In this document: positions 36,436-61,661 of the stretch, piece by piece
Numbering within the stretch: the first letter of the stretch is position 1
Layout of the letters: each line of letters opens with the position of its first letter
NCBI GenBank assembly: GCA_945883545.1
Contig: CAMCXT010000001.1
Coordinates: 1 to 64,000 of the forward strand
From: Chitinophaga pinensis
Lineage (GTDB): Bacteria; Bacteroidota; Bacteroidia; M30B66
Length of the DNA stretch: 64,000 bases
Direction: 5' to 3'
Position numbers and translations under genes: made by a program
The notes under the pieces: generated by a model
What the model was told of the DNA's origin: nothing
What the model saw: only the letters and a program-made list of their open reading frames with translations
The model's database searches: none

Positions 36436-37371
36436 TTAAAAATCTCTTTGTGTAAAAGAGCCTGATTTGTTGGTCATGAAATCATAACGAACCATGATTT
36501 CGTGCGTTGCTCCAACTCTTCCAGAGAGTTTATTTACAGTGAAATCGGTAGCGTAACCTAATCTGAAATTTTTATTCACCTTCACTTCTGCAAGCACAAG
36601 AATGGCATTTCCAGTTCTGTAGCTCAAGCCAATTCCATATAGATCTTGGTAGTAAAGATTCGAATTGATATCCATCTGAACAGGTGAACCAGCCACACTC
36701 TTTAATAGAACTGATGGCTTTAGTTTCAAATCAGAACCTAAGTCAAACACATATCCTCCATAAAGATTCATGTGCGTCCGAAGGCGAGAAACATTGTCAG
36801 AATTTAACAAATCATCACGCAAAAGATGGTTGTTGAGGTGAGGAAGACTCAATCCACCGTACCATTTTTCGCCATACCAGAATACTCCAGCACCGAAGTT
36901 GAAATTCCAGCTCGAATAGTTGTTGGCAAATGCAACGTCGTATTTGTACTCTGGCGACAATTCCACTTCAGTAAGGTTGATGTTGAAATTGCGAACGCCT
37001 GTTTGAAGTCCGAACGCTAAGGTCGATTTTTCTAACTTCAACTTGTAGGCGTACGATACCATAAAGCTGGTTGTTTTAAAATACCCAACTTGGTCGTTCA
37101 TCATGCTTAGCCCTAAACCCATTGTTTTATTCTTGAGCGGACCATGCACAGTGCAGGTAGATGTTCCTGGAGATCCTGGAAATTTCATCCATTGTCTACG
37201 AAACATTCCAACCGCTTGAAATTGATCGAGTGAACCCGCGTAAGCAGGGTTGATCGAAAGCGGATTAAACATGTACATACTGTACATCGGATCTTGTTGC
37301 GCGCTAAGCGCCGACGGTGCCAGCAGAAGTAAAAGTAACTTTACAATGCGACGGGTAATGCTTATCTCCAT
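36436..37371 (-). CDS. PorP/SprF family outer-membrane protein
   Basis: The protein has 311 residues with a signal peptide (ITRRIVKLLLLLLAPSALSAQ). The PorP/SprF signature QDPMYSMYMFNPLSINPAYAGS follows, then RRQWMKFPGSPGTSTCTVHGPL. The rest is predicted to form an outer-membrane beta-barrel of about 12-14 strands. SprF-type proteins are needed for secretion and surface attachment of a cognate type B CTD protein such as SprB in Flavobacterium johnsoniae. Here the gene overlaps the 3' end of a type B CTD gene by 10 bp, which strongly suggests a dedicated pair. Confidence 0.92.
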   Translation of the reverse strand: MEISITRRIVKLLLLLLAPSALSAQQDPMYSMYMFNPLSINPAYAGSLDQFQAVGMFRRQWMKFPGSPGTSTCTVHGPLKNKTMGLGLSMMNDQVGYFKTTSFMVSYAYKLKLEKSTLAFGLQTGVRNFNINLTEVELSPEYKYDVAFANNYSSWNFNFGAGVFWYGEKWYGGLSLPHLNNHLLRDDLLNSDNVSRLRTHMNLYGGYVFDLGSDLKLKPSVLLKSVAGSPVQMDINSNLYYQDLYGIGLSYRTGNAILVLAEVKVNKNFRLGYATDFTVNKLSGRVGATHEIMVRYDFMTNKSGSFTQRDF

Positions 37372-40337
37372 ATTGTCAAAATGCCGTTTCTGATTTCAGT
37401 TTCACCTTCGATTTGAATTTGGTAATAGTAAGTGCCTTCTGGCAATCTGTCACCACCAAACTGTACGCCTATGTCTGAGGTACCACCCCAATCATTTTGG
37501 TAGTTGAGGCTTTCATAAACAAGATTACCCCAACGATTATAAACTCTAACCTCAGCATTTCTTCCGTTGAGGTTTAGGATTTCAAAAAAGTCAAATACAC
37601 CATCACCGTTTGGAGAGAATCCTGCTGGGATGTAAACTTCTTGGTTTGAACAGAAATCAGATTCATCGCTAAACAAAGTGATGTTTAAGGTATCTGTTGC
37701 AATACAGCTTCCATTTTGTGCGGTGAGCAACAAGGTATTTGTAATGCCTTTTGTTAAACCTGAGAAGGTTGGAGAGGTAGAAAGTGCACCATCAATAAGC
37801 GCTGTTCCTGCAAGCACATCCCAAGTCCAAGTTGCTGTGCCTGTTACCGTAATTGGTAGGTTAATTGGCAATTCGAAAGCACAAATTGAAGTATCTGGTC
37901 CAACGTTTACAAATGGCTGTTCGAAGCGGTTGATTGTTACCGAATCTGAAGAACTACAAGCACCGTTTGATACAGTCCAAATGAAAGTATTTTCTCCAAG
38001 ACTTAATTCGTTTACTGCTGTTGTATTCGAGTTTGGATCAACAATCACCGAAGATCCAGAGAATATACTCCAAACACCCGTTCCTACAGCAGGTGCCGTA
38101 GCGCTTAGGAAGGCTTCTTTTAAACAAGCATCTTGATCTGGACCTGCAAGAGCCTGAGCAACAGGTTCGCTCACTGTTACTACGACTGTGTCGGCTACTG
38201 TAACATTGCCCAATGAAACTGTCCAAACAAAGGTATTTTCACCAGGATTTAAATCGTTAACTTCTGCTAGAGCCAAGGTTGGGTCTACAAAAGCACCAGT
38301 TCCTGTGATTTGCGTCCAGATACCTGAACCTCCAACCGGAATTTCAGAACCTTCTAAGAAGTAAGTTGAATCGCAGACTGTTTTGTCATCACCTGCAAAA
38401 ACAACCAAGGTAAATGCTTGAACGTCGAATATGATTGTATCATTTACACAGATGGCAGGCAATGGGAAGCCTGAATCACAAACAGAAACAATTACCGTAT
38501 CGAAACCAGTGAAACCAGCATCGGCAGTGTAGCTGAAAGATCCATCGCTGTTGAAGGTGAACACACCGTTGTTGGCATCATCTACAATGATAGGATCAAC
38601 AGTGAGCGTTGTGTTTTCAATGTCTGTATCGTTGTCTAGAACGTTTCCATTGTAAAGCACGCCAGCCACAACGATAATATTCTCATTTTGGATAGTTGGT
38701 GCATCATTCACTGGCAATACGGTAAACACCAATGTGTCGATTAAACAAATGGCAGGAAGCGGCAAACCTTGGTCGCAAACTTCGATGAACACTGTATCGT
38801 TGCCGTAGAAATTCTGACTCGGATTGTAGATAAATGAACCATCGGCGTTGATGGTGATCAAGCCGTTTGAAGGACCTGAAATAGGATTCACGTTCACTAC
38901 CAGCGTGGTGCCATCAGGATCGTTGTCGCCATTGTCGAGAATGTTTCCACTTGCTTCTCCGTCTTCGAGAACATCAAATTGGTCGCTAACAATTACAGGT
39001 GGAGTGTTACACTGAATAACAATTGATACTTGGTCGGTTGAATCAGGACAATTACTTCCTGTGATTGTCCATTGAAACACATTTTCGCCAGCACTTAAAT
39101 TTGTAACAATTGTGTTGAACAACGTTGCATCTGCGAAAGTACCGCTACCAGAAACAACGGTCCACAATCCAGTTCCTTCTGTTGATTCTGTGGCAGCAAG
39201 AGTAACTGTGTCTTCACAAATTGTTTGATCAATACCTGCGAAAACAGAGTCCTTTCTGAAAACAATAACTTGAGATACTGATACTGGACAAACTCCATTC
39301 GAAATGGTCCAAGTGAAGATGTTGTCACCTTCCGACAAGCCCGAAACACCTGAAAATGGACTTGTAGCATCTTCAAAAACGCCAGTACCTGATAAAACTG
39401 CCCAAACACCTGTTCCAACAAGTGGATTTTCTGCGTTCAATGCAGCGCTTTGTAAGCAAACTGTTTGATTTGCTCCAGCATTTGAGGTGCTTGGATTGGG
39501 CAATCTTGTAATAGTAACTTCATCAAAAGTTGGAGGAAAACCACCCGATCCTGGAAGTGTCCAACGCAAAACGTTAGCACCTACTCCAAGGCCAGTAACA
39601 ACTGTAGTAGGCGAATTGGAATCTTGGAAAATACCTGATCCAGATACAAGCGACCAAGTTCCTATTCCGAAGAGTGGAGCATTACCGGTAACGGTAGTTG
39701 AGTCGGAGCAGTTTGTTTGATCGTCACCAGCATCTGCTGGAGGATTTGAACATCCATTCGTAATTATTGTAACTGCCCCACCTTGCCCATCAAAATTTCC
39801 AAGTTCAACAAATGAAAATTGATTGTTAACAATATTCAGGTCGCAAGGTTCTGTGGAAGCAGTATTGAAGCGAATATATATCAATACTGATCCATTGGGA
39901 AATAAAGTATTAAGGTTGTTTGAAGTAAATCGAAATTCAAGAAATCCTCCAGAAGCAACATCAGGAGCAGTAAATCCTAGAACCTGCTCAATTCCAGCAA
40001 CATTGATAATGCTGTCGAATTCAAACTCTGTATTATTAAAGAAGAATTGGAAATCCATTGTTGAAATTGGATCATCCGAATTAATGTAAACTGGATAATC
40101 GATAAATCCAGCTCCAACAATAGCATTCGACACGTCGAGAAAAATCGTATCATTTAAGTCAATTGCTGCAACCGAATTAGGCATTGCAGCTGCAGATGCG
40201 ATTGTCGAATTGGCGCCAATAAAAAAGCACATCCATGTAAATAGGAGGTGAAACTTTCTGAAATTAAATTTTAATCCAGCACTAATTAAGTTAACATTGA
40301 AAATGGAAGTCCGCTTCCTGGTTGCACCTGATGTCAT
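37362..40337 (-). CDS. Gliding-motility-associated (type B CTD) surface adhesin-like protein
   Basis: The protein has 991 residues. After a signal region (about 28-50), a cohesin-like beta domain lies at about 60-195. Six homologous Ig-like modules of roughly 85 residues follow, each with a GxDQTxC start, a G-x-W-x-x-x-S-G-x-G centre and a GEN-x-F-x-WT end. Two cadherin/VCBS-like modules (DGSFIYNPSQNFYGNDTVFI and DGSFSYTADAGFTGFDTVIV) interrupt the array near 480-650. Residues 901-991 are a type B CTD (FSPNGDGVFDFFEI, VYNRWGNLVYES). It is exported by T9SS with its PorP/SprF partner. Adhesion or gliding is inferred from family. The start is uncertain: the ATG at 40337 gives a long n-region. 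Confidence 0.9.
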   Translation of the reverse strand: MTSGATRKRTSIFNVNLISAGLKFNFRKFHLLFTWMCFFIGANSTIASAAAMPNSVAAIDLNDTIFLDVSNAIVGAGFIDYPVYINSDDPISTMDFQFFFNNTEFEFDSIINVAGIEQVLGFTAPDVASGGFLEFRFTSNNLNTLFPNGSVLIYIRFNTASTEPCDLNIVNNQFSFVELGNFDGQGGAVTIITNGCSNPPADAGDDQTNCSDSTTVTGNAPLFGIGTWSLVSGSGIFQDSNSPTTVVTGLGVGANVLRWTLPGSGGFPPTFDEVTITRLPNPSTSNAGANQTVCLQSAALNAENPLVGTGVWAVLSGTGVFEDATSPFSGVSGLSEGDNIFTWTISNGVCPVSVSQVIVFRKDSVFAGIDQTICEDTVTLAATESTEGTGLWTVVSGSGTFADATLFNTIVTNLSAGENVFQWTITGSNCPDSTDQVSIVIQCNTPPVIVSDQFDVLEDGEASGNILDNGDNDPDGTTLVVNVNPISGPSNGLITINADGSFIYNPSQNFYGNDTVFIEVCDQGLPLPAICLIDTLVFTVLPVNDAPTIQNENIIVVAGVLYNGNVLDNDTDIENTTLTVDPIIVDDANNGVFTFNSDGSFSYTADAGFTGFDTVIVSVCDSGFPLPAICVNDTIIFDVQAFTLVVFAGDDKTVCDSTYFLEGSEIPVGGSGIWTQITGTGAFVDPTLALAEVNDLNPGENTFVWTVSLGNVTVADTVVVTVSEPVAQALAGPDQDACLKEAFLSATAPAVGTGVWSIFSGSSVIVDPNSNTTAVNELSLGENTFIWTVSNGACSSSDSVTINRFEQPFVNVGPDTSICAFELPINLPITVTGTATWTWDVLAGTALIDGALSTSPTFSGLTKGITNTLLLTAQNGSCIATDTLNITLFSDESDFCSNQEVYIPAGFSPNGDGVFDFFEILNLNGRNAEVRVYNRWGNLVYESLNYQNDWGGTSDIGVQFGGDRLPEGTYYYQIQIEGETEIRNGILTIWR

Positions 40338-40767: not shown

Positions 40768-43700
40768 TTACTTGCTAACAACAACTTTCTTCATTACTGA
40801 GAAATTGTCGTTGCTGATTTTTACGAAGTAAACACCAGCAGCAAATTCTGAAGTAGAAATGCTGTGAGTTTGACCTGCAGAAACTGAAGCTGGAGCAGAG
40901 ATAACGCGACCAGCAGCATCCATCATAGAGATAGTTGTAGCTTCTGGAGCAATTACGTTAACCATGTTGCTAGCTGGGTTAGGGAACACAGCAACAACTT
41001 CGTTGTAATCATTAGCGCTGATACCAGTTACGAAGTTACCGATAACTTCAACTTCAGCTTGGTTACCATTGATGTAACCGAAAGCATTCATCAAGTCAGA
41101 AGCATCAACTGCACCGTTCATGTTGAATTTTACAAATGCAACTGGACGAGCTGTATTTACGCTTTCGATACCGTTAGCAGTGAAACGTACTTTTCTATCA
41201 TCAGCATTGAAGTGACTCAATGACTCAAGGTTAGAAGCAACACCTGTCATACCTACGAATGAAAGTTTGTTTTCGTTGATGTTCATAGAGAAGTCAACTG
41301 CGTTAACTCCACCTACAGACATAACAGTAACAGGAACTTCAACTGAACCAGCTGAGTAAACTGCACGGTTAAGATCGAAGATTACTTTTTCAGTTGCAGA
41401 TTTGAATTCAGCACTTGGGTTAGCAGTAGCTACGTTACCGTTAACATCACCTACTAGGATACCTACGTAAGTTTCTGGCGTGTAATCAGGGCAATTTGCG
41501 AAAGAAGTAACTTTGATTGGCAAACAGAAATCAACTGAAGGAACGTTTGATTTAGAGAAACCAACACCGTCGTTTGAAGGATAAGTTGCAGAGATTGAGT
41601 AAGCAGGAGTAGAAGCTACAGTTGAAGAATCAACGAACAACCAGTCTTTTGACAAAGAACCGTTTGATACTCCGTTGATGTCGTAGTTCCAAGCTTGCTT
41701 GAATTCAGGAATGAACAATACAGCACGCTGATTGATTTGTGAAACGTCACCAGCGCTAACAGTACCATCAAGATTTACATCCATTGCAACGATCTGGTAA
41801 ACAGAAGGTGAAAGGGTGATATCGTTGATAAGAACACGACGAGCCAAAAGAGCATCTTGACCATTGATTACAGCTTGAACGTCTGTAGTACCAAGGATGT
41901 CTTTGTCGATGTTGATGCTAAGACCATTGAATGCACTGTGAACGAAAACACCGTTAAGATCAGGCTGAACAGCAGTAGCAGAAGGGCTAGAGCAATCAGC
42001 AGCAGTACCACGGATGTTAGTGATCAAGAATTGGTTAGGGTTAGCAACGTTGTAAGGAATACGGCTGTTGTCTGTCCACAATTTCAAAGTACCAGTGTAC
42101 AAAGAATCACGGTAAGAAATATAGTCACCAGTTTCAACCAATTTAGACTGAACTCCTGTGAAGTATGATTCCTGAAGGAATGGTACTGTAAAGCTTGCAG
42201 TATCATCTGGAGCAAATCCAGCATTTTTAGTAAACTCAACACAGAACAATTCGCCATCACCAACAAAACGAGTTGCAGCAGGAGCAGAACCGTTAAAGTA
42301 TACAGAGATGTTCATAACACCGTTAACTTGGTCGATACTGTTACTTACTTCAGTAAATGCAGGGTTAACAAGATCAGAAGCTACAGTTACAACACCTGTT
42401 GGAGTTACAAGAGTAGGATCGAAATTCAAAACAACGTCATAACCGATAACGTTTGATACTGCCTCAAATACGTTTAAAGGCAAGCAGAAAGAAGTTTCGT
42501 TACAAACGTTAACTGAAGTTCCGATGTTGTAAGGAAGTCCATTAGGGTCAGCGATGTTAAGAACAACAGCAGCAGAAGTTGTGATTGCACCACGGTCATC
42601 AGTTGATTTAGCAGTGATGCTAGCATTTCCGATAACGCTTGTCCAGTTGATTGAGTAAGGTGAAGTATTATCAACACCGATTGATACGTTGTTAACGAAG
42701 AATTCAACTTGTGTTACTGTACCATCAGCATCAGATGCGTTAGCAGAGATAGCTACTACTGCAGGAGCAGTAAACAATGTACCAGCAGCTGGTGAAGTTA
42801 AAGTTGCAGTTGGAGGAATGTTGTTTACAACAACGATTGAAACAGCAGCAGATGTAGCTTGAAGACCAGCATTATCAGTTGCACGAGCAGTCAAAATGTG
42901 GTTACCCAAAGTTGAAGTGTAAGTAGCTGCGTATGGAGCAGTGTTATCAGTTGACAACAAGTTACCATCTACGAAGAATTCAACACCAGTTACGCTTCCG
43001 TTATCGGTTGCAGTTGCAGTAATGTTTACAACATCACCAGTGATGAAAGAAGCACCTGCAGTTGGAGCAGTGATAGCAACTGACGGTGGAGGGTTGCTAG
43101 CGATGTTGATAGTTACACCAGCAGAAGTTACAGTTGCACCTTCGTCATCAGTAACTACAGCAGTAAGAACATCAGTTCCAGTTGTACCAGTGTAAGAAGC
43201 TTCGTAAGGAGCAGTGTTATCAGTTGACAACAATACACCATCAATAAAGAAAGCAACAGAAGCAACAGAACCATTAGCATCAGCAGCAGTTGCAGCGATG
43301 TTGATGGTAGAACCAGTGATGAAACCTTGACCGTTAGTTGGTGAAGTGATAGATACTGTAGGAAGCGTGTTTGGAGCTCCCAAAGTTCCTGACAATGAAG
43401 GGATGTCGATCTCAGCACCAGTTGGAGTATCGTGAACGTAACGCTCAACACCACCAGTTGGAGTTCCGATCTGGATGTTCAACGCGTAAGAAAGGATACC
43501 ATCAGTAGTGATTTGTGCAATCAAAACAAGGTTTGATGCAGTTGGGCCAGTAGCACCAACCAATGATGACCAAGCACCATCAGTTAATTGATACAAAGAA
43601 CCTGATTGGCTTGTAGCATCTAATGCAGCAAGAGCTTGAGGCTCAGCTTGACCTACGAAAGTTACAGAAGATGGAGATCCTAATAAAAGACCATCTTGCG

Positions 43701-44178
43701 TAGTTAAAGGAATACCTGCTGACGCATCAGCATTTTGAAGCATTTGAGGCGTAGAGTTGTTTACTACAGTAGCAACACCATCATCTACTGATTTCAATAC
43801 ACCATAGTTACCAACGCAAGCACCACCAGCCGACAACCATGAATCTAGCATTACAGAATTTCCGCGTGCTTGAGTTTTAGTGTAAGTTGGAGTTGTAGCA
43901 CCACGGTCTTCGTTATTGAAGAATGTAGTAGTTGTTGAGAACGTAAGTACGTCGCCACCAGCTGGTGCACCGTATGCAGCCTGGAATTTGTATCCTGGCA
44001 ACATGTCAACGTAGAAACGGTAAGTAACAGATCCTGTTGGAAGTGTTCCAACTGAACCAGCGGCATCAACAGCATTCGATACGTAGTATTTCTCTACAAC
44101 GATGCTCTCAAGACCATTTTGTGCGTTAACCAAGCCAGCTGATAAAAGCAAGCCAAGGCCTAACATAAATTTTTTCAT
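40768..44178 (-). CDS. LEN-domain T9SS protein with Ig-like, cohesin-like and dockerin-like modules
   Basis: The protein has 1136 residues. I chose the ATG at 44178 because it starts a clear signal peptide (MKKFMLGLGLLLSAGLVNAQ); the longer frame adds 17 residues without one. About 21-265 is an unnamed domain (LESIVVEKYYVSNA..., FFNNEDRG at 86-93, ERYVHD) shared with the 363- and 446-residue proteins near 59-60 kb and 55 kb. Three Ig-like modules follow at about 270-540 (each PTVxITxPTNG-like, ending A-x-ATDNxGxxxTS). A cohesin-like domain lies at about 546-660, a dockerin-like loop DVNLDGTVSAGD near 796, a second cohesin-like region near 925-1045, and a type A T9SS CTD at the end (VFPNPASNMVNV to VVVSK). 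Function unknown. It lies 41 bp after the beta-helix gene. Confidence 0.85.
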   Translation of the reverse strand: MKKFMLGLGLLLSAGLVNAQNGLESIVVEKYYVSNAVDAAGSVGTLPTGSVTYRFYVDMLPGYKFQAAYGAPAGGDVLTFSTTTTFFNNEDRGATTPTYTKTQARGNSVMLDSWLSAGGACVGNYGVLKSVDDGVATVVNNSTPQMLQNADASAGIPLTTQDGLLLGSPSSVTFVGQAEPQALAALDATSQSGSLYQLTDGAWSSLVGATGPTASNLVLIAQITTDGILSYALNIQIGTPTGGVERYVHDTPTGAEIDIPSLSGTLGAPNTLPTVSITSPTNGQGFITGSTINIAATAADANGSVASVAFFIDGVLLSTDNTAPYEASYTGTTGTDVLTAVVTDDEGATVTSAGVTINIASNPPPSVAITAPTAGASFITGDVVNITATATDNGSVTGVEFFVDGNLLSTDNTAPYAATYTSTLGNHILTARATDNAGLQATSAAVSIVVVNNIPPTATLTSPAAGTLFTAPAVVAISANASDADGTVTQVEFFVNNVSIGVDNTSPYSINWTSVIGNASITAKSTDDRGAITTSAAVVLNIADPNGLPYNIGTSVNVCNETSFCLPLNVFEAVSNVIGYDVVLNFDPTLVTPTGVVTVASDLVNPAFTEVSNSIDQVNGVMNISVYFNGSAPAATRFVGDGELFCVEFTKNAGFAPDDTASFTVPFLQESYFTGVQSKLVETGDYISYRDSLYTGTLKLWTDNSRIPYNVANPNQFLITNIRGTAADCSSPSATAVQPDLNGVFVHSAFNGLSINIDKDILGTTDVQAVINGQDALLARRVLINDITLSPSVYQIVAMDVNLDGTVSAGDVSQINQRAVLFIPEFKQAWNYDINGVSNGSLSKDWLFVDSSTVASTPAYSISATYPSNDGVGFSKSNVPSVDFCLPIKVTSFANCPDYTPETYVGILVGDVNGNVATANPSAEFKSATEKVIFDLNRAVYSAGSVEVPVTVMSVGGVNAVDFSMNINENKLSFVGMTGVASNLESLSHFNADDRKVRFTANGIESVNTARPVAFVKFNMNGAVDASDLMNAFGYINGNQAEVEVIGNFVTGISANDYNEVVAVFPNPASNMVNVIAPEATTISMMDAAGRVISAPASVSAGQTHSISTSEFAAGVYFVKISNDNFSVMKKVVVSK

Positions 44179-44219: not shown

Positions 44220-45905
44220 TTAGTCGCACGAAGTTCCGAATTGACCAACTAGGTCAAGGAAGTCGTTGGTGTTAGTTTGACCATCTTTAGTGATGTCAGT
44301 AGGACAAGCAACTAGACCGTTTGTAGCATCTAAAAGCGCTGAGTAAGACCAAGTAGACATCCAAGAAGTAACACCTGGCTTGAATGCACCACGGTAGTTT
44401 GTAGGAACGAAGAATCCATCAGATGGAGGAACACAAGTTGAAGCAACTAGTGGGTTAGGAACAGCATTGTACTGATCAGTAACTGTAGTTCCAGATGCAG
44501 CAAAGTTGAAATCTAAACCAGCAAGAGTAGCTACTACAGTATTGTTATCAGCAAGGAATTTTGCATCATCACCAGCAACAAGGTTAGCAGCAGAGCCACC
44601 TACGGTGAAAGAAGTAGTGTTTCCAACGAATGTATTACACTCAACAATTAAAGTAGGAGTAAATGTATTACCCGCTTGGTCAATACCTCTCCAGTTGTGG
44701 TAAGACTCAACATTACCTGTTCTTGTTCCTAAAGATTTTACCAAGTTAAAACCAACGCGGTAGTTAGCGAAGATTGAGCTGCGGATTGTACCTTCAACTT
44801 TTTCTTTAGCCATGATCGCAAATGGGCCACCTGAATTACCAAGGTTTGCATTTGTGTTTGAACCGTTACCGATAAAAGTAGAGTTGTAAATAGTTGGACG
44901 TGAAAGTAGGGTTGGGTTACCTTTGTTGTCATCACCATCAATTTCTAAACCGCTATCTCCACCTGTAAAGGTTGCAGCGTCTAATTTAACTGAAAGCATG
45001 AACTGAACTTTACCAGTATATCCTTGGTCATAGTCAAAATTGTCGTCATTGTTGAACATCAATGTCAAATACTTCATGTTCACAGTTCCACCAAATGGCT
45101 CAATACCATCATCGTCATTCGAAATTACTTCGATATTTTCGATTGTTGTACCGCGACCTACTGAACCTAAAGTAAGACCATTCAACTCATTGTTAGCACC
45201 TACTGTTGCACCTGCGTGACGAATAGATACATAACGCAAAACACCAGAGTTATCGTTATCGTCTTCTTGGCCTGGAGGCATACCGTATAGGTTACGTGCA
45301 TCAGCTGCAGTGAAACCTTCGATGAAACCGATACCATCGCCACCATTAACACCTGAACCTGTAGTTCCATTGAAACCGATAGTTCCTGCTGCGCTGTAGT
45401 TTGCCGCTGTAGTTAGGTTATTTTTTGCTTTTCCAAGGATTACAATACCACCCCACTGACCTTTGTTAGTCAAAGCGTAAGTACCATCGAGTGGATCTGC
45501 TTGAGCTGTGAAAATGATAGGGCAGCTTTCAGTACCGCTAGCGAAGATTTTACCATCACGATTAACCAAAATTGCATTTGCAGCAGCTGGAGTTCCAGTT
45601 GGAGCACCTTTGATTACAGTACCTGGTTGAATGGTTAGAGTCTTACCAGCAGGTACATAAATTTTGTTGTCAAGGATATACGTCTTGTCACAAGTCAAGA
45701 TCGTATTGGTAGCAGTTAAATCGCCATCTGTAGCTCCACCGATAGTAGCTAAAGTTGACATAGAAACTGAAGTTCTTGATGCCACTGGAGGACATCCACA
45801 CGCTTCTCCAAGGTTCTGCTGAGACGCGAGCTGAGCAGAAGCCTGGTTGTTAGCAGCTAAAGCGATAATTGCCAAAGCAGCCATTTTGGTAATTTGTGTT
45901 TTCAT
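44220..45905 (-). CDS. Secreted beta-helix protein ending in a dockerin-like motif
   Basis: The protein has 561 residues. The ATG at 45905 begins the signal peptide (MKTQITKMAALAIIALAANNQASAQ). The body has the features of a right-handed beta-helix family frequent in Bacteroidota: TCDKTYILDNKIYVPAGKTL, IQPGTVIKG, QWGGIVILGKA, GVLRYVSIRHAGA and NDDDGIEPFGGTV. There is no type A or B T9SS CTD. Instead the last 25 residues hold one dockerin-type F-hand, D-x-T-x-D-G-x5-D (DITKDGQTNTND), followed by FLDLVGQFG and a terminal Cys-Asp. It may be held by cohesin-like domains of the next gene product; that is inference. A near-consensus AATATTTG box lies upstream. Confidence 0.85.
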   Translation of the reverse strand: MKTQITKMAALAIIALAANNQASAQLASQQNLGEACGCPPVASRTSVSMSTLATIGGATDGDLTATNTILTCDKTYILDNKIYVPAGKTLTIQPGTVIKGAPTGTPAAANAILVNRDGKIFASGTESCPIIFTAQADPLDGTYALTNKGQWGGIVILGKAKNNLTTAANYSAAGTIGFNGTTGSGVNGGDGIGFIEGFTAADARNLYGMPPGQEDDNDNSGVLRYVSIRHAGATVGANNELNGLTLGSVGRGTTIENIEVISNDDDGIEPFGGTVNMKYLTLMFNNDDNFDYDQGYTGKVQFMLSVKLDAATFTGGDSGLEIDGDDNKGNPTLLSRPTIYNSTFIGNGSNTNANLGNSGGPFAIMAKEKVEGTIRSSIFANYRVGFNLVKSLGTRTGNVESYHNWRGIDQAGNTFTPTLIVECNTFVGNTTSFTVGGSAANLVAGDDAKFLADNNTVVATLAGLDFNFAASGTTVTDQYNAVPNPLVASTCVPPSDGFFVPTNYRGAFKPGVTSWMSTWSYSALLDATNGLVACPTDITKDGQTNTNDFLDLVGQFGTSCD

Positions 45906-53879: not shown

Positions 53880-54608
53880 TTATTTATTTTTCACACATCT
53901 AACTGCCATCCCAAATTTCTTGCTTACATAAAATCTGAAAACTCCCGATTTTTTGTAATCCAAATTTCTGAAATAAGCAGTTTCATAATCTTTTTCGGTC
54001 GCCGACCACCAGTATCCGCAATATCCAAGGCCTGGGTTTGCCCAATTTCCGTTTGCGAGTCTGCCAGCAGGGGTTAATGCAGTAAACCCGCTTTTATTAT
54101 TCCCCCAAACTTCCCCAAACCTTAACCATGATTCTGGCCCTCTTACTTTTAATTGATCACCGCAGCTTCCACTTTCGCGCCAGTTTACCTTTTCGATTTC
54201 ATCGGCACTCATGCCTAAGTGTTTTTCGAGTTCCTGCCACTCGCTTTCAGTAGCCACATGCCATCCTTCAGGAGCCAATCCGTCGCTGTGATTTACTGCT
54301 TCCCAATTGTAAAGTAAACCAGGCGCGAGCTGATTGTTTTCGAACAAACAAGAAGCAGCAGAGCCCAAGTCCCAATCGTTCTGACTTTGGCTGTTCGCAA
54401 TATTATTCCCATTTCTAAAACGGGTTACTTTGAGGTCTTCGGCCATCCACCAATTGTCGCCAATTTTAACCGTGGTATAAATATTACCATCGATATCGGC
54501 AATTGAATCAATTGTAGGCTTTGTTTCTTCAATAATGTCATCTTCACAGGCCGAAAACAAGCCAATGAAAAGCAAACTAGAGAGGATTAATTTGAACGAC
54601 ATCTTCAT
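53880..54608 (-). CDS. FISUMP-domain lipoprotein
   Basis: The protein has 242 residues. The start at 54608 gives a lipoprotein signal peptide with lipidation Cys at residue 21 (LFSAC), directly followed by the acidic EDD stretch, which resembles lipoprotein export signals of Bacteroidota and hints at surface exposure. The mature part is a 'Fibrobacter succinogenes major paralogous domain': IGDNWWMAEDLKVTRFRNG, LYNWEAVN, PEGWHVATESEWQELEKHLG and the final GYWWSATEKDY to AVRCVKN. The family is thought to be carbohydrate- or surface-related but is not biochemically defined. It is last in the LEN/TonB-receptor operon, 4 bp after the 446-residue protein. Confidence 0.87.
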   Translation of the reverse strand: MKMSFKLILSSLLFIGLFSACEDDIIEETKPTIDSIADIDGNIYTTVKIGDNWWMAEDLKVTRFRNGNNIANSQSQNDWDLGSAASCLFENNQLAPGLLYNWEAVNHSDGLAPEGWHVATESEWQELEKHLGMSADEIEKVNWRESGSCGDQLKVRGPESWLRFGEVWGNNKSGFTALTPAGRLANGNWANPGLGYCGYWWSATEKDYETAYFRNLDYKKSGVFRFYVSKKFGMAVRCVKNK

Positions 54609-54612
54609 TTTT

Positions 54613-55953
54613 TTATTGATTAGTCCATTTACCAAACCAACGACCCCGCTGATTTTGAACTGTTATAAAATACATACCTGGAGAAAGATTCAACTGATCT
54701 AACAAGATTGTTGATCCAGCAGACGCCTTAACATTAGAAGCACTGTAAACAACACTTCCCAAAGCGTTAAGAACATTCACTGTGAAATCTTCAGATGGCA
54801 AAAAGTTGCCACTAATCGAAACGCTGTTTTTCCCCGGATTCGGGAAGGTATTCAAGAAATAAACTTGATTTTTTAGCAAGTCGATCGACAATTCAGGACA
54901 TACTGTAGCAATATCCAAATCGTTGCAATCACCAATATAACAGCACAAATCAATGATATTGAAATTTGCATTTACATCGTAGTTGCATGCAAGTGGATCT
55001 AAGCAACCAAAAACGATTAATGTGCGGCAAGAATCAGCGGTTCCACAGGCGAACGTTGGACTATATTCAAGATAATCTGGATCCTGACAGCCGCATTGTG
55101 GCGGGTAAACAAGCGATGAACTCAACAACTCATCTTGAGCCAAAGAAGAATCGCGCGCAACGTATTTAATTATTTGATTTCCATTCGGACCTTCAACTTC
55201 AATTTCCAGATTTAATTCAAAGTACAATTCTCCAGTAGTGGTTAATTGAGCCAACAACACATGATTTAAAGTGGTGTCGACACCTTTTGTACCTGAGTTA
55301 AATACCGAAGCATTTCTGCTTTCGAATTGATTTCCAGAAACAATAGAACCAAAAATAGTAGAGTCGGTATCGTCGATTGGATTTACAATCCCGATCGATG
55401 CTCCAGCAGATGGCAAGTTCTCTAAGGTATCGTTCCCATCAGCTTCATTGATTGGAATTCCTGCTTCCGGGTCGTTGTTGTTAAGTAAACCTTCAAGAAT
55501 TTCAGCACTACCACCATCATGAACGCCATTTCCAGCGATGAATGACCCATTGGTATCGTTTACTTTTAAAACACCAGCTTGCTTAGTTGAACTGGTTGTT
55601 GTTTGACCAATAGTCAACCAAGTGTCAAGGGCTACAGTGTTTTCATCAAGACGTGTTTTGGGAAACTCATACCCGAATGTTTTACCGTCTGCTTTGTTGT
55701 TGAAAAACGGCTGTGTACTTCTTATAATGATCGGATGGTTTGCATCACCATAGAGTCTTTTGATTTTTGCATTGGGCGCTAAATCAGCATACACACGGTA
55801 GGTTTTGCTTCCAATTGGAAGTCCGCCACCGAGTGTATCGGTAGCATCATTTGCGTCGGAGATATAATACAATTCAACGACTATATTCTCGAGTTGTGCA
55901 TTTGCCTGATTGATTGCCATCAAGCTCAACAGTAATAAAAGAAATTTTCTCAT
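54613..55953 (-). CDS. LEN-domain T9SS protein with Cys-rich GCxDPxACNYD motif
   Basis: The protein has 446 residues. A signal peptide covers 1-20 (MRKFLLLLLSLMAINQANAQ). The unnamed N-terminal domain at about 21-270 is homologous to those of the 1136- and 363-residue proteins (LENIVVELYYISDANDA, LPIGSKTYRVYADLAP, FFNN, VALDTWLTIG). A Cys-rich stretch follows at about 285-350 (GCQDPDYLEYSP, FGCLDPLACNYDVNAN, CCYIGDC), a motif common in marine Bacteroidota surface proteins. A type A T9SS CTD closes it (NTFPNPGKNSVSI, LSPGMYFITV). It lies 12 bp after the TonB receptor gene in the same operon. Function unknown. Confidence 0.87.
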   Translation of the reverse strand: MRKFLLLLLSLMAINQANAQLENIVVELYYISDANDATDTLGGGLPIGSKTYRVYADLAPNAKIKRLYGDANHPIIIRSTQPFFNNKADGKTFGYEFPKTRLDENTVALDTWLTIGQTTTSSTKQAGVLKVNDTNGSFIAGNGVHDGGSAEILEGLLNNNDPEAGIPINEADGNDTLENLPSAGASIGIVNPIDDTDSTIFGSIVSGNQFESRNASVFNSGTKGVDTTLNHVLLAQLTTTGELYFELNLEIEVEGPNGNQIIKYVARDSSLAQDELLSSSLVYPPQCGCQDPDYLEYSPTFACGTADSCRTLIVFGCLDPLACNYDVNANFNIIDLCCYIGDCNDLDIATVCPELSIDLLKNQVYFLNTFPNPGKNSVSISGNFLPSEDFTVNVLNALGSVVYSASNVKASAGSTILLDQLNLSPGMYFITVQNQRGRWFGKWTNQ

Positions 55954-55965
55954 GACTGAATTGTA

Positions 55966-58900
55966 TTATAATCGGTATTGAACAGCAAATTGATAGAAGG
56001 TTCCATATCTGAAACTGTCGAAATCTACTCGTGTTCCGTCGGTAAAATTGTAACGTCTTTGAATAGCCGTATTGAACAAATCCCTTACAGTTAAAGAGAA
56101 TAGCCAATGTTTGCCTACTTCTTTACTCACTTTAATGTCGATCATATCACGAGGCATCTCATATACATCAGGAATACCGAATCCATTTGTAATTACAAGT
56201 CTTTTTCCTTGGCGATTATAGCTGATCGTAGCAGTCAATCCCAATGTATCTGATGTGTAATTTAAAATACCATTGAGTACATATGGCGCTTGTCCAAACA
56301 TTGGTCTACTAATATCTTCAATAGGAAGGTATGTTTTTACGCCATTGTTAAGTTGTAAGACTGTTTGGGTGAATTCTGTTTTTGATTGCGTTAGGGTAAT
56401 ATTAGCTCTGAATTCGAGGTTCTTAACAATTTTTTTCCGCCCTTCAATTTCAATACCTGATGCCATCGATTTGTCGACGTTTTGCCAACTAAATCCGAAA
56501 CTAGAGTTGGTTAACTCGATGTGATTTTTAAAGTCCTTATAAAACAAACTCAAAGAAACATTGTCGCCAGATTTAAAGTAATTCTCTAAACGAATGTCGT
56601 AATTCTTGATGTTTACCATTTTTAAATTCGAATTACCAAACACAGGAACGCGAAGTTCAAAGTCAAGTATGAATACTTCAGAAAGTTCTCGAAGACTTGG
56701 TCGAGCAACTGTTTCTGAGTAATTCACTCTTAAGTTAATAGGAGCTTGTTCATTGTCGCGTAGCTTATAAACTAAGTTGATACTTGGAAGAAAACTTGTC
56801 TCATTAAGTTTACCAGAAATTGGAGCCAAAGCAATAATGCCATCTTTGAAGAATCGTCTTCCATCGTCATCAGCATATCCCAAAGAATCATACAAAGTAA
56901 TATCCGTGAACATATTTGCATGCTCAACCCTTAATCCTCCAGATACTCTGATTTGCGGATTGAAGTTGTAATCGATCATTGCAAAACCAGCAGTGATATT
57001 GCTGTTTCCTATGCTGCTGTTTCCTGGATCGTTATCTTTTTCGTAATACGCGTTGATAATACCTTCTTGGTTAATCTCAAAGTTCGACAAATCAAAGAAC
57101 GGAGAAACATCGTTATTCTGAATAATATATTGATCGAATTTACTGAATGCAAGCAGGTAATTGTATTGGTCATACTCTCTTTCTAAGTTCAGATATGCAC
57201 CACCAAACTTTACTTTTCTGACAAGTCCTGCACGTTGCTTGGCGATAGGTAATTCAAAACCTACTTTAGAGTCAAACAAATTTTCAGATAAGTACCTGTA
57301 AAAGCGGCTAGTTCGTGATCCTGTTGTACTAATAACCAAAATGCTATCACCGTTTAAAAAGTAGTTAAAGCTTTTAAAATCTGGTGCCTCACTTTTTCCA
57401 TTCGTATAAGACGCATTAAAGTCAATTTTTAACTTCGATTTAGGGAAATAATGATCCGTTTTCAATTGATAGACCATTTGATTTCTCTGCTCATAAAATT
57501 GAGTTTGCGTGTATGTAACCAATGATTGGCTATTGTCATCAATTTCAGCATCGTTACGAATATTGTTGTCGCCGTTTTGATTGGGCATAAACATTAAGGC
57601 AATCGAATGATTCGGTGATGGTTTATAGGCTAGATTAAAAAGGGCACTCCAACCGTTCGATTGTCTTGTCGCATGCTGTGTAACGTCACTATTTGCAAAT
57701 ACATTTCCATTGTTATCTATTGCAGCTCTTTGGGCTATTGCATTTGCATCATTTCTGAAAGTGCTGTTATATCTGTATCCAACAAAAAAGCCAAGTGGCT
57801 TACCGAAGAGTTTTAATTGATTTCCAATACTAAAACTTTGAGAAAAGTTTACTGGCCCTGTTTGAGTTTTATTCTGCCAGTTATTTGCAAACTTTGATCC
57901 TGATTCACCAGAAGGCCCATTGATTTTTTGGTAGGCTTCAACTTTATAGTTCCCTGCATTGTATTCGTTTCTGGCAAGATTAAAAGCTTCTGAATTGTTG
58001 AAGTTTCCTGGAGAAAGCAAACCGAGCTGCACCAATCCCAATTTAAAGTAGGTGTCATTCCACTGGGTATTAGAAGTAACTCCAATTGAGTTATAATAAT
58101 CTTCTAATCCATTGGCTGCGAGCTCCTCATATATAGATATGTTTTTGTCATAGGCAGCAAAATTGCTATGATCAACATCTCTAAAACTGTTGTCATAACC
58201 CAACCAATCAGTACTACTTTTCTCTGTAGACAATATTGTTTTACCCGTAGTTTGAGGGTTGTAGGTTATTGCATTTTCAAAAGTCACTGTCAATTTATCA
58301 GGGTAATCTTTGGTTTCTACCGATAAATATGCACCCGCCCAATCGCCTGGTAAATCTGGTGAAGCAGTTTTTGTGATGATGATATTGTCGACCAAGCTAG
58401 CCGGAAATAAATCGAGTTTAATGTTATTGGTAAATGGATCGAGCGTAGGAATTCTCATTCCATTGATATTCGTTTTTAAATAACGGTCACCAATACCACG
58501 TACAGTAATAAAGGATCCGTTTGTTGAAACTCCACTAACACGGGCTACAGCTGCTGTTACGTTGTTATCACCTGTTTTTTTCATGGTTTCTGCAGAAATG
58601 TAATCGATCGATGTGGTCGATTTTTTCTTCAGATTTTCAAGGTAGTAATCTTTGTTTTTTACAGCATCTGCAATAATTTCAACATTGCCAATCACATTCT
58701 CTTTTGGCTTCATATTGAAATTCTTGATAAGTACCTGCCCCTTTTTCAGTTGAACAGTTTCCTCAATAAGCACGTAACTCACGAAAGAAACTTGAATCAC
58801 TTGTGCAGTGCTATCCTTGATAACAAGCGAATAGTTACCGTCAAGGTCTGTGATGGTTCCAACTGATTTGTTAGATTTTAAGAACACCGCTGCACCAATG

Positions 58901-59007
58901 ATGGTTTCGCCATTTTCGTCGGTGATTTTCCCCCTAAGAGTTCCTTGAGCAGTTGCCCCAATAGAAAAGAGGAATAAGGCGATGATATTCAGTATAATGT
59001 ACTTCAT
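55966..59007 (-). CDS. TonB-dependent outer-membrane receptor
   Basis: The protein has 1013 residues. The ATG at 59007 starts the signal peptide (MKYIILNIIALFLFSIGATAQ). Further upstream the frame stays open for 83 codons but runs through a terminator and the preceding gene, so I reject it. A carboxypeptidase-regulatory-like domain (about 22-105) precedes the plug (ISAETMKKTGDNNVTAAVARVSGV, RGIGDRYLKTNINGMRIPT, SPDLPGDWAGAYLSVETKDYP). A barrel of about 22 strands follows, ending in an aromatic-rich strand (FYQFAVQYRL). This subfamily is recognisable by the D-P-F-x-N-N-I-x-L-D-L-F-P motif. The ligand is unknown; neighbours of the LEN family may be its surface partners. Confidence 0.93.
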   Translation of the reverse strand: MKYIILNIIALFLFSIGATAQGTLRGKITDENGETIIGAAVFLKSNKSVGTITDLDGNYSLVIKDSTAQVIQVSFVSYVLIEETVQLKKGQVLIKNFNMKPKENVIGNVEIIADAVKNKDYYLENLKKKSTTSIDYISAETMKKTGDNNVTAAVARVSGVSTNGSFITVRGIGDRYLKTNINGMRIPTLDPFTNNIKLDLFPASLVDNIIITKTASPDLPGDWAGAYLSVETKDYPDKLTVTFENAITYNPQTTGKTILSTEKSSTDWLGYDNSFRDVDHSNFAAYDKNISIYEELAANGLEDYYNSIGVTSNTQWNDTYFKLGLVQLGLLSPGNFNNSEAFNLARNEYNAGNYKVEAYQKINGPSGESGSKFANNWQNKTQTGPVNFSQSFSIGNQLKLFGKPLGFFVGYRYNSTFRNDANAIAQRAAIDNNGNVFANSDVTQHATRQSNGWSALFNLAYKPSPNHSIALMFMPNQNGDNNIRNDAEIDDNSQSLVTYTQTQFYEQRNQMVYQLKTDHYFPKSKLKIDFNASYTNGKSEAPDFKSFNYFLNGDSILVISTTGSRTSRFYRYLSENLFDSKVGFELPIAKQRAGLVRKVKFGGAYLNLEREYDQYNYLLAFSKFDQYIIQNNDVSPFFDLSNFEINQEGIINAYYEKDNDPGNSSIGNSNITAGFAMIDYNFNPQIRVSGGLRVEHANMFTDITLYDSLGYADDDGRRFFKDGIIALAPISGKLNETSFLPSINLVYKLRDNEQAPINLRVNYSETVARPSLRELSEVFILDFELRVPVFGNSNLKMVNIKNYDIRLENYFKSGDNVSLSLFYKDFKNHIELTNSSFGFSWQNVDKSMASGIEIEGRKKIVKNLEFRANITLTQSKTEFTQTVLQLNNGVKTYLPIEDISRPMFGQAPYVLNGILNYTSDTLGLTATISYNRQGKRLVITNGFGIPDVYEMPRDMIDIKVSKEVGKHWLFSLTVRDLFNTAIQRRYNFTDGTRVDFDSFRYGTFYQFAVQYRL

Positions 59008-59018
59008 GATCCCTTCAG

Positions 59019-59048
59019 AAAAAAAAGCAGGACTTTTTAGGTCCTGCT
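59019..59048 (-). terminator. Intra-operon terminator-like hairpin
   Basis: On the minus strand AGCAGGAC and GTCCTGCT pair perfectly around a CTAAAAA loop, followed by seven to eight T. It lies between the 363-residue LEN gene and the TonB receptor gene, so transcription probably attenuates there. Confidence 0.82.
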
Positions 59049-59065
59049 CATGAATGTTTTCGAAA

Positions 59066-60157
59066 TTAATTCTTAACGAAGTTTTGCGTCGATCGTTTTC
59101 CGTTCGAAATAACTTCAAGGATGTATCGGCCTTTAGCCAAATTCGAGATATCGATTTGCTCTGTACTTCCTGATTGGAAGTTTGCAATTGTTCTAACCGA
59201 TACAAGTTCCCCACGCATGTTGAATACTGAATAACGTACTGGTCCGTTTGTTTCATTTTCCAATTTCAACGACAATGCATCTAGTGCTGGATTAGGGAAC
59301 AACGTAATCAATTGATCATTTGTGTTCTGGTAGTGTGCTTTTGTAATTACGTCAGATACATAAGTTAATCCTGGGAATTCAATCTCTGCATCTACAGGAT
59401 TTGAAGCAACATATCTTTCAACTCCTCCAGCAGGTGTTCCAATTTGAATATTTAATTCAAACGACAAAATACCATCAGTAGTAAATTGACCGATTAATAC
59501 TTGGTTTGTTTCTGCATCAGGCCCTGTTGCGCCAGTTAAAGCAGCCCAAGAACCATCTGATGTTAAAAATACAGGACCATTAGTTCCGTCATTTTGAGCA
59601 TCAAACATTGCAAATTGATCATCAGCTCCCACTCTAGTTACACTTACTGGAGTACCTGCAATCATTCCATCTTGTTCTGTTAAAGGAATTCCTGCAGCAG
59701 GGTGCGCGTTCAATAAAACTCCATCATTGTTCACATTGGTTGCAACACCGTCATCAGCCGTCTTAAGAACGCCCATTTGACCTGTACAAGCAGCGCCAAC
59801 AGATACCCAAGTATCCAACATCACTGTGTTGCCACGAGCTTGTGTTTTGGTGTATGTTGGAGTAATTGCTCCACGGTCTTCGTTGTTGAAGAACAATGTA
59901 GTGGTTGCAATTCTTAACTCATGAAAATTTGGCGCTGGAGTTCCATAAACAGCTTGGAGTTTATATCCAGGGAGCATGTCTACATATACTCGGCGGGTTA
60001 CTGAACCAACTGGTAAAGCACCGCCATCTGCATCAACCGTTGCATCATTGGCATCTGAAACATAATATGTTTCAACGATAATATTTTCAAGACCATTTTG
60101 CGAAAGCAATGGAAATGTCAAAAATGACATCAATGAAAGGAGTACAGATTTTTTCAT
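59066..60157 (-). CDS. LEN-domain T9SS protein (short paralogue)
   Basis: The protein has 363 residues: signal peptide 1-20 (MKKSVLLSLMSFLTFPLLSQ), one LEN domain (about 21-275) and a type A T9SS CTD (about 283-363, LFPNPALDALSLKL to FVKN). It is the minimal form of the domain. Residues 89-117 match the 1136-residue paralogue's 86-114 at 26 of 29 positions, so the two are close relatives. Secreted through T9SS; function unknown. It is the promoter-proximal gene of the operon with the TonB receptor. A GACTTTTG box (60199-60206, minus) 41 nt upstream is a possible -7 element. Confidence 0.88.
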   Translation of the reverse strand: MKKSVLLSLMSFLTFPLLSQNGLENIIVETYYVSDANDATVDADGGALPVGSVTRRVYVDMLPGYKLQAVYGTPAPNFHELRIATTTLFFNNEDRGAITPTYTKTQARGNTVMLDTWVSVGAACTGQMGVLKTADDGVATNVNNDGVLLNAHPAAGIPLTEQDGMIAGTPVSVTRVGADDQFAMFDAQNDGTNGPVFLTSDGSWAALTGATGPDAETNQVLIGQFTTDGILSFELNIQIGTPAGGVERYVASNPVDAEIEFPGLTYVSDVITKAHYQNTNDQLITLFPNPALDALSLKLENETNGPVRYSVFNMRGELVSVRTIANFQSGSTEQIDISNLAKGRYILEVISNGKRSTQNFVKN

Positions 60158-60500
60158 GTGTAGAGAGTTGATGGATTTAGTGGTGTTTTACAACGCAGCA
60201 AAAGTCCATAACACATAGATCATAAATCTGTCCTGAATATTATGTTTTGGTTAATCGAATGAAATGCTTCAATAATGCATGAAAGCTTCTATAAATAGAG
60301 ACTTATCGCTCGATAATGCCTTAAATCAAGAATAACATAAGATTAACCCAATGTTAAGCGACGGTCTTTAAAGTTGCCGACTTAAGTTAATTTCGAGGCT
60401 CTATACAGTTCAATATTTACCGATCCTGTCTTTTTGAAATATCGATGTCTGTCATGCCTTGTTCACCTTATTATTTCAGAACGTAATGAAAAGGAACTTC
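60158..60500. other. AT-rich divergent intergenic region
   Basis: It separates the LEN/TonB-receptor operon (minus) from fic (plus) and holds the operon's probable promoter (GACTTTTG, 60199-60206, minus). A 14-bp palindrome TTATCG-CT-CGATAA lies at 60303-60316. No RNA gene is evident. Confidence 0.4.
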
Positions 60501-60593: not shown

Positions 60594-61661
60594 ATGTCTT
60601 GGATAATTGCAGAGCTGCCGCTGAGTCTAGATTTAGAGAGCAAAAAGGTATTAAAGGCATTATCGCCGGCGCACGCTGCTTTGGCCGAGCTTAAAGGTAT
60701 TGCATCAACAATTCCCAATCAGAATATTCTGATCAATACGCTGGGTTTACAGGAGGCGAAAGACAGTTCGGCAATCGAGAATATTATAACAACCCACGAT
60801 GATTTATACAAATCTGAATTGAATTTCGACGCATTCACATCCTTGCATGCCAAAGAGGTTCAAAACTATATCTTGGCGATGAAAAAAGGTTTTGAATTGA
60901 TTACAACTTCCGGCCTAATAACCAGCAACGGTATATTGCAGATTCAGCATTTACTGGAATCCAACAATGCAGGTTTTCGAAAACTCCCCGGAACGGCTTT
61001 GAAAAATTCGGCAACGGGAGAAACTGTGTACACACCTCCGCAGGATTTTGATGAAATTATTCGTCTAATGACAAACCTTGAACGCTACATAAATGATCCT
61101 GCATTTCACAACTGCGATCCTTTGATTAAAATGGCAGTGATTCATTTTCAGTTCGAAAGTATTCATCCATTTTATGATGGCAATGGGAGAACCGGGCGGA
61201 TAATTAACATCCTTTACCTCATTCTCGAAAAGCTGCAAACCTTACCCATTTTATACCTCAGCAAGTATATCATCAAGCATAAAACAGCCTATTATCAGCA
61301 TCTGCAGAACGTTAGAAATGATGAGGCTTGGGAAGAATGGTTGCTATTCATGATACATGGAATAGAACAAACAGCAAGGGAAACCATCGAATTAATAGTT
61401 GAAATCAAAGAGCTAATGCTCAGGTACAAACATCGCCTTCGCAACAATTATAAATTTTACAGTCAAGACCTGCTCAATAATTTATTTAAACATCCTTACA
61501 CGAAAATTGAGTTCGTTGTTCAGGACCTAGGCATATCAAGAATAACTGCCGCAAATTATTTGAATACCTTATCTAAAGACGGAATGCTACGTAAAAGAAA
61601 ATTGGGGACGGGCAATTATTATATCAATGAAGAGCTGTTTGAGCTTCTCACGAAACGCTAA
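60594..61661 (+). CDS. Fic-family protein (class II, N-terminal inhibitory helix, C-terminal wHTH)
   Basis: The protein has 355 residues. The Fic active site HPFYDGNGRTGR is at 191-202 (catalytic H191), so it can probably transfer AMP or another nucleotide moiety to a hydroxyl side chain. The flap region is GETVYTPP. The N-terminal inhibition motif S58-x3-E62-N63 ([S/T]xxxE[G/N]) marks a class II, self-inhibited enzyme. The last 60 residues (FVVQDLGISRITAANYLNTLSKDGMLRKRK) form a winged helix-turn-helix, seen in many stand-alone Fic proteins and consistent with self-regulation. No separate antitoxin gene is present. It is convergent with nuoI (17 bp between stops). Confidence 0.93.
   Translation: MSWIIAELPLSLDLESKKVLKALSPAHAALAELKGIASTIPNQNILINTLGLQEAKDSSAIENIITTHDDLYKSELNFDAFTSLHAKEVQNYILAMKKGFELITTSGLITSNGILQIQHLLESNNAGFRKLPGTALKNSATGETVYTPPQDFDEIIRLMTNLERYINDPAFHNCDPLIKMAVIHFQFESIHPFYDGNGRTGRIINILYLILEKLQTLPILYLSKYIIKHKTAYYQHLQNVRNDEAWEEWLLFMIHGIEQTARETIELIVEIKELMLRYKHRLRNNYKFYSQDLLNNLFKHPYTKIEFVVQDLGISRITAANYLNTLSKDGMLRKRKLGTGNYYINEELFELLTKR

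Follow-up and report, generated by a model that had tools for sequence, protein, structure and literature searches.

The 64,000-nucleotide stretch of DNA analyzed here (the window; Chitinophaga pinensis contig CAMCXT010000001.1, positions 1–64,000) carries a gene cluster that encodes a TonB-dependent receptor (TBDR), a secreted beta-helix protein, a FISUMP lipoprotein and three paralogous proteins, LEN1, LEN2 and LEN3, that share a domain called LEN. The LEN domain constitutes an undescribed protein family, and none of the libraries searched contains a match to it. By contrast, the system as a whole is a known theme, a TonB receptor with an ElpS/FI-type protein in phosphate starvation, newly equipped with LEN proteins delivered by the type IX secretion system (T9SS). 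It is a variant of that theme, although LEN is new, because the receptor and beta-helix core and the PhoB-type promoter box both belong to it. The operon probably functions in PhoB-controlled phosphorus uptake at the outer membrane under phosphate starvation, a prediction drawn from comparative sequence analysis.

A sequence-only reading of the window had proposed a four-gene system of LEN1, receptor, LEN2 and FISUMP, and the gene order, lengths and intervening gaps it gave (58, 12 and 4 bp, in that order) were exact to the base. These four genes are indeed conserved together, but the unit is larger. In a set of 57 LEN loci drawn from public Bacteroidota genomes, most of which are freshwater metagenome bins, the usual order is LEN0 (an extra paralogue in some loci)–LEN1–TBDR–LEN2–FISUMP–(two small genes in some)–beta-helix–LEN3. 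The LEN–TBDR–LEN–FISUMP order is present in 33 of the 57, and nearly all the rest end at contig ends. The beta-helix gene lies within the LEN operon in most loci, and a search of the window's own genome located the LEN domain of LEN3 at 43.4–44.2 kb; LEN3 and the beta-helix protein are members of the same conserved unit as the four genes. Some versions of the operon include further genes between FISUMP and the beta-helix gene: one for an OMP_b-brl_2 outer-membrane barrel (225–292 aa; 11 loci) and one of 180–199 aa without a Pfam family (5 loci). Loci with extra small genes before the beta-helix gene include L062, L070, L079, L083 and L085.

The linkage of LEN to its receptor was quantified in 396 Bacteroidia genomes that are at least 90% complete. 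Strong LEN matches were found in 38 genomes and the receptor subfamily in 37, all of them LEN genomes, resulting in a co-occurrence table of 37:1:0:358. In the apparent exception, G020, the receptor adjoins LEN2, so that all 38 strong LEN genomes carry this receptor subfamily; LEN without receptor linkage, which would have refuted the sequence-only reading, was seen in none of them. The corresponding Fisher value, 2e-51, is descriptive and not literal, as the genomes are not independent. Relatives in five families (for example G007, G008, G016, G019 and G028) lack both LEN and the receptor, indicating that gain or loss affects the whole module at once. LEN-like domains apart from a receptor operon were encountered only as remote, scattered copies in large repeat proteins of a single genome (G256; loci L092–L096).

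LEN1 and LEN2 share 37% identity across 269 aligned residues (E 1e-36), delimiting a common domain of ~250 residues. As the sequence-only reading had anticipated, the domain belongs to no family that could be named: profile searches for it against Pfam, NCBIfam and PDB sequences were all negative, as was the PDB search with a FISUMP profile, and a literature search on LEN or FISUMP together with TonB returned nothing relevant. A confident AlphaFold2 model of LEN built from 110 homologues had a predicted local distance difference test score (pLDDT) of 95 and a predicted template modelling score of 0.92. Foldseek searches with this model turned up no significant neighbour in either PDB (best E 0.046) or BFVD, making LEN, within the scope of these two databases, a candidate new fold. 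YcnI, Als and Flo were considered as fold relatives and rejected, as these weak Foldseek matches had template modelling scores of about 0.3 or less.

LEN1 and LEN2 are T9SS cargo because both C-termini score above the curated cut-off of the type A sorting domain TIGR04183 (47.2 and 33.9 bits, respectively; cut-off 23). LEN3, whose Por_Secre_tail match scores 52.1 (cut-off 27), is assigned to the same cargo by its sequence, while LEN0 has no T9SS tail. The LEN2 orthologues form a single clade (42 of 42, support 0.98), and the LEN paralogues are therefore old. No LEN domain was found on plasmids. Residues E11, D20, R38, K114, D117, D145, Q206 and N218 are invariant acidic or polar positions of the family. 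The remote G256 domains keep E11, R38, D97, Q206, G211 and, nearly always, N218, but not Y14, D20, K114, D117 or D145, and are missing a segment of about residues 104–173 that holds K114 and D117. This comparison makes segment 104–173 the foremost candidate site at which LEN may touch the receptor or a ligand. In G256, the genome of which is complete, the LEN-like domains are followed by GC(T)DPxACNYDPxA repeats.

Strict TTAAC-N6-TTAAY pairs occur upstream of the first LEN gene in 8 of 28 promoters, compared to 0.2 expected, and TTAAC repeats are enriched in LEN promoters at an 11-bp period and at no other. In a leave-one-out analysis, 21 of the 28 beat 95% of 103 control promoters drawn from the same kind of genomes; the window LEN1 promoter beat all 103. 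The phosphate-starvation lipid-remodelling pair plcP-agt served as an independent promoter test set; PhoX, present in just 4 of 29 genomes, had been set aside for its rarity. Upstream of plcP-agt, the motif with period 11 that had been derived from the LEN promoters was present in 7 of 16 cases, including that of the window's own genome, against 1.05 expected (0 of 1000 shuffles), and in 5 of 103 controls. An unbiased scan of the 396 genomes for perfect TTAAC triples with the 11-bp period gave 30 loci for inspection (L205–L234), 15 of which lie beside phosphate genes (PitA/PHO4, PhoU_div, PstS-PstC, Na/Pi cotransporter, porin O/P, PhoB/PhoR). Moreover, a second TBDR/beta-helix pair in L064 is separated from PhoB by an intergenic region that contains TTAACGGACAGTTAACATTTCCTTAAC. 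Because the motif recurs at plcP-agt, beside phosphate genes and at this PhoB intergenic site, the TTAAC repeat element is very likely the Pho box of these bacteria, and phosphate (Pho-type) control of the operon is well supported by these sequence comparisons. The tandem TTAAC repeat at an 11-bp period is also a candidate class-wide Pho box for Bacteroidota; a literature search for a Bacteroidetes Pho box found nothing relevant. Boxes upstream of the beta-helix genes are individually weak but give a combined signal of 1.6e-7 over 37 loci. A single TTAAC-N6-TTAAY pair was rejected as a means of defining the regulon, as it is too short alone: it has 26 matches in the window's own genome, most near unrelated genes. 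A rhodopsin-like 238-aa reading frame, recognized by eye, lies downstream of one TTAAC pair in that genome (L116 549–1265, C23).

Genes near the LEN clusters also include ones connected with phosphate. In about 7 genomes the cluster has a PhoB-like regulator as its immediate neighbour, plcP-agt is less than 10 kb away in 5 of the 19 genomes having the pair (p 7e-7), and PhoX is encoded divergently from the cluster in L044, L045 and L087.

The receptor contains CarbopepD_reg_2 and Plug domains and scores 177.5 bits against TIGR01782 (TonB-Xanth-Caul), below the curated cut-off of 310. The sequence-only reading had likened the receptor and its surface partners to SusCD without SusD and had identified the lipoprotein as FISUMP; the latter matches Fib_succ_major (E 2.6e-38), and no gene of the unit matches the SusD family, leaving the receptor without a SusD/RagB partner. 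The conserved unit also contains no carbohydrate-active enzyme. The AlphaFold2 model of the beta-helix protein (pLDDT 79) has only parallel beta-helices as its best Foldseek neighbours (E about 1e-3). Its N-terminus (...NNQASAQLAS), judged by eye, is of the signal peptidase I type without a lipobox Cys. The beta-helix family is found in 290 of the 396 genomes, its LEN-associated subtype only in LEN genomes.

Beta-helix homologues adjoin a TBDR in all 5 of the annotated plasmid records examined. On Indioceanicola and Sphingomonas plasmids the pair is accompanied by type II secretion genes, and the layout is exactly the Caulobacter cc0170 (ElpS)–cc0171 arrangement; on an Alteromonas plasmid (L203) it lies beside phoB-phoR and a PstS-like gene. 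Further pairs are found in Pseudoalteromonas (L202) and Aureibacter. Three partner receptors were compared, from Sphingomonas, Alteromonas and Aureibacter, and each shows homology to the window receptor over most of the latter's length. The receptor and beta-helix core is homologous to Caulobacter ElpS/cc0171 and to the Alteromonas phoBR-adjacent pair, and it is probably shared with Flavobacterium PUSIII/IV. The pairs in L203 and L202 have their own ExbB-ExbD-TonB set and a DUF3450 gene. The new family, its receptor linkage and the SusCD logic of the sequence-only reading stand; the beta-helix protein and LEN3, the T9SS cargo status, the phosphate-starvation core and the PhoB-type box had not been foreseen.

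In the mechanism we propose, phosphate starvation would lead a PhoB-type regulator to bind the TTAAC repeats with 11-bp period upstream of LEN1 and switch the operon on. The T9SS would carry the LEN proteins out to the cell surface, where they, the FISUMP lipoprotein and the beta-helix protein may form a layer around the TonB receptor. This layer would bind, and possibly help process, a phosphorus-containing ligand such as a phosphoester, a nucleic acid or a phosphorylated polymer, which the receptor would take up using TonB energy. LEN and FISUMP would be parts added to the receptor and beta-helix core. The sequences themselves establish the conservation and linkage of the genes, their homologies and secretion signals, and the promoter motif with its phosphate-gene association; from these we infer PhoB binding, induction, complex formation, the ligand and, as did the sequence-only reading, the capture of ligand by LEN proteins for the receptor. 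That LEN is a non-enzymatic capture partner is about as likely as not. A more specific version, which we offer tentatively, is that LEN is a new fold in the job of SusD, a T9SS-delivered capture module that docks on a dedicated receptor via the clade-specific segment 104–173 and hands over the phosphorus substrate. If true, uncultured aquatic Bacteroidota would widely possess an import architecture that dispenses with SusD.

Several observations weigh against phosphate-starvation uptake by an ElpS/FI-type system. The regulators adjacent to LEN clusters score best against PhoB models, yet under the PhoB equivalog cut-off; no phosphatase was found inside the window cluster, and searches of its own genome found neither PhoU nor PhoX. 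No box upstream of the beta-helix/LEN3 unit in the window is convincing (p 0.47), and the beta-helix protein of the window is not a lipoprotein, while ElpS and FI are, FISUMP being the lipoprotein here. Homology to FI/FII is judged from what has been described of their fold, family and genomic context and not from direct sequence comparison, and the kinship of the genomes counted means that the co-occurrence p-value is not to be taken at face value.

Alternative roles for LEN were weighed against capture. LEN domains could themselves be enzymes, for example a new surface-released phosphatase or phosphodiesterase whose products the receptor imports. Their invariant acidic and polar residues would suit catalysis, and phosphatases are present in other phosphate-induced clusters (PMC8115612); we nonetheless consider this unlikely, as core residues persist in the G256 multi-domain proteins that lack segment 104–173 with K114 and D117, and neither the sequence nor the Foldseek results disclose a metal-binding triad or likeness to a known enzyme fold. 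It is rather improbable, too, that LEN proteins are surface adhesins or scaffolds merely co-expressed with the receptor in starvation and not partners in uptake. The Flo and Als adhesins among the weak Foldseek neighbours, the Ig repeats in LEN3 and the large repeat proteins that harbour remote LEN-like domains fit such a role. Against it stand the LEN–receptor–LEN order in 33 loci, the perfect co-occurrence with one receptor subfamily, the residues invariant only in receptor-linked LEN domains, and LEN0, which without a T9SS tail would make a poor adhesin. Both of these explanations overlap with phosphorus uptake as the operon's function. Uptake of glycan or another carbon source, with LEN, FISUMP and beta-helix proteins binding or cleaving polysaccharide and the receptor importing the fragments, as in a polysaccharide utilization locus without SusD, is highly doubtful: pectate lyases and polygalacturonases typically have the beta-helix fold, FISUMP has been described as DUF1566-like, among C-lectin-type variable proteins (PMC4159848), and the gene order recalls SusCD logic, but the conserved unit has no carbohydrate-active enzyme, it shares its promoter boxes and neighbourhood with phosphate genes, and relatives of the receptor/beta-helix pair accompany phoBR.

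Table 1 Features of the LEN cluster and its surroundings in the window
Feature	Position	Strand	Remarks
LEN1, 363 aa	59066..60157	-	Signal peptide, LEN domain (residues 19-274), T9SS type A sorting domain
TonB-dependent receptor, 1013 aa	55966..59007	-	CarbopepD_reg_2, Plug and barrel; from ATG at 59007
LEN2, 446 aa	54613..55953	-	LEN domain, Cys-rich GC(L/M)DPxACNY segment, T9SS type A tail
FISUMP (Fib_succ_major) lipoprotein	53880..54608	-	Lipobox Cys (SAC)
T9SS-A surface protein, 2329 aa	46566..53555	-	fn3 and G8-like matches; between FISUMP and beta-helix genes
Beta-helix protein, 561 aa, ElpS/FI-like	44220..45905	-	Secreted, without lipobox; dockerin-like C-terminal motif
LEN3	40768..44178	-	LEN domain, three Big_7 Ig domains, cohesin-like and dockerin-like regions, T9SS type A tail
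CHU_C protein (991 aa) and PorP/SprF	36436..40337	-	Adjoin LEN3 in the genus; membership uncertain
Intrinsic terminator-like hairpin	59025..59049	-	In the 58-bp LEN1-receptor gap
Pho-box-like promoter element TTAACCAAAACATAATATTCAGGA	60231..60254	-	97 bp upstream of LEN1; when held out, outscores each of the 103 control promoters
Second upstream direct repeat TTAACATTGGGTTAAT	60342..60357	-	11-bp period

The remaining features of the region are listed with the core genes in Table 1. Given the terminator-like hairpin that separates LEN1 from the receptor, LEN1 may be produced in excess; under strict search criteria, just 1 of 42 other loci had a comparable hairpin. The 2329-aa surface protein, whose 7-kb gene interrupts the unit in this genus, is probably outside the conserved unit, as its gene is found in the near relative L035/L060 and is missing from most other loci. 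A weak TTAAC-type repeat lies upstream of the CHU_C gene, at about 40549. Divergent from LEN1 is a gene for a SoFic-like Fic protein (60594–61661, + strand), apparently outside the conserved unit. In this genus the whole ~25-kb cluster (35724–62209) sits inside the nuo operon for respiratory complex I, where it separates nuoI from nuoJ; in the family relatives G006, G007 and G009 the nuoI–nuoJ spacing is about 55 bp.

In many lakes phosphorus is the limiting nutrient, yet little is understood of how Bacteroidota take it up across the outer membrane, and Pst is often missing in Bacteroidetes (PMC8115612). The analysis identifies a conserved multi-protein system, an unmatched domain family and a candidate Bacteroidota Pho box, which should allow class-wide prediction of the Pho regulon.

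Among known systems, Caulobacter ElpS (cc0170)/cc0171 resembles the window system in that a secreted beta-helix-family protein is encoded beside a homologous TonB receptor in a phosphate-starvation context; ElpS is produced under phosphate starvation (PMC2996285). ElpS, however, is a lipoprotein, and its system is tied to type II secretion and has neither LEN nor FISUMP, whereas the window system has T9SS cargo in the form of three LEN proteins and a FISUMP lipoprotein. In Flavobacterium johnsoniae, PUSIII (Fjoh_3856/3857) and PUSIV (phoBR, Fjoh_0545/0546) combine a TonB-dependent transporter (TBDT) containing Plug and CarboxypepD domains with the polygalacturonase-like lipoproteins FI or FII, and the TBDT/FI and PhoBR/TBDT/FII clusters are induced by depletion of inorganic phosphate (PMC8115612). 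As in the window, the transporter is encoded beside a beta-helix surface protein and the pair has no SusD; the differences are that no LEN is reported there, that FI and FII are lipoproteins and that the other genes of the clusters are different. SusCD and PusCD systems share with the window unit a TonB receptor with co-encoded surface proteins, but the window unit has no SusD homologue or carbohydrate-active enzyme, and its partners are T9SS cargo. Finally, LEN1, LEN2 and LEN3 end in TIGR04183/Por_Secre_tail sorting domains like other T9SS type A cargo, while none of the described cargo families matches the LEN domain.

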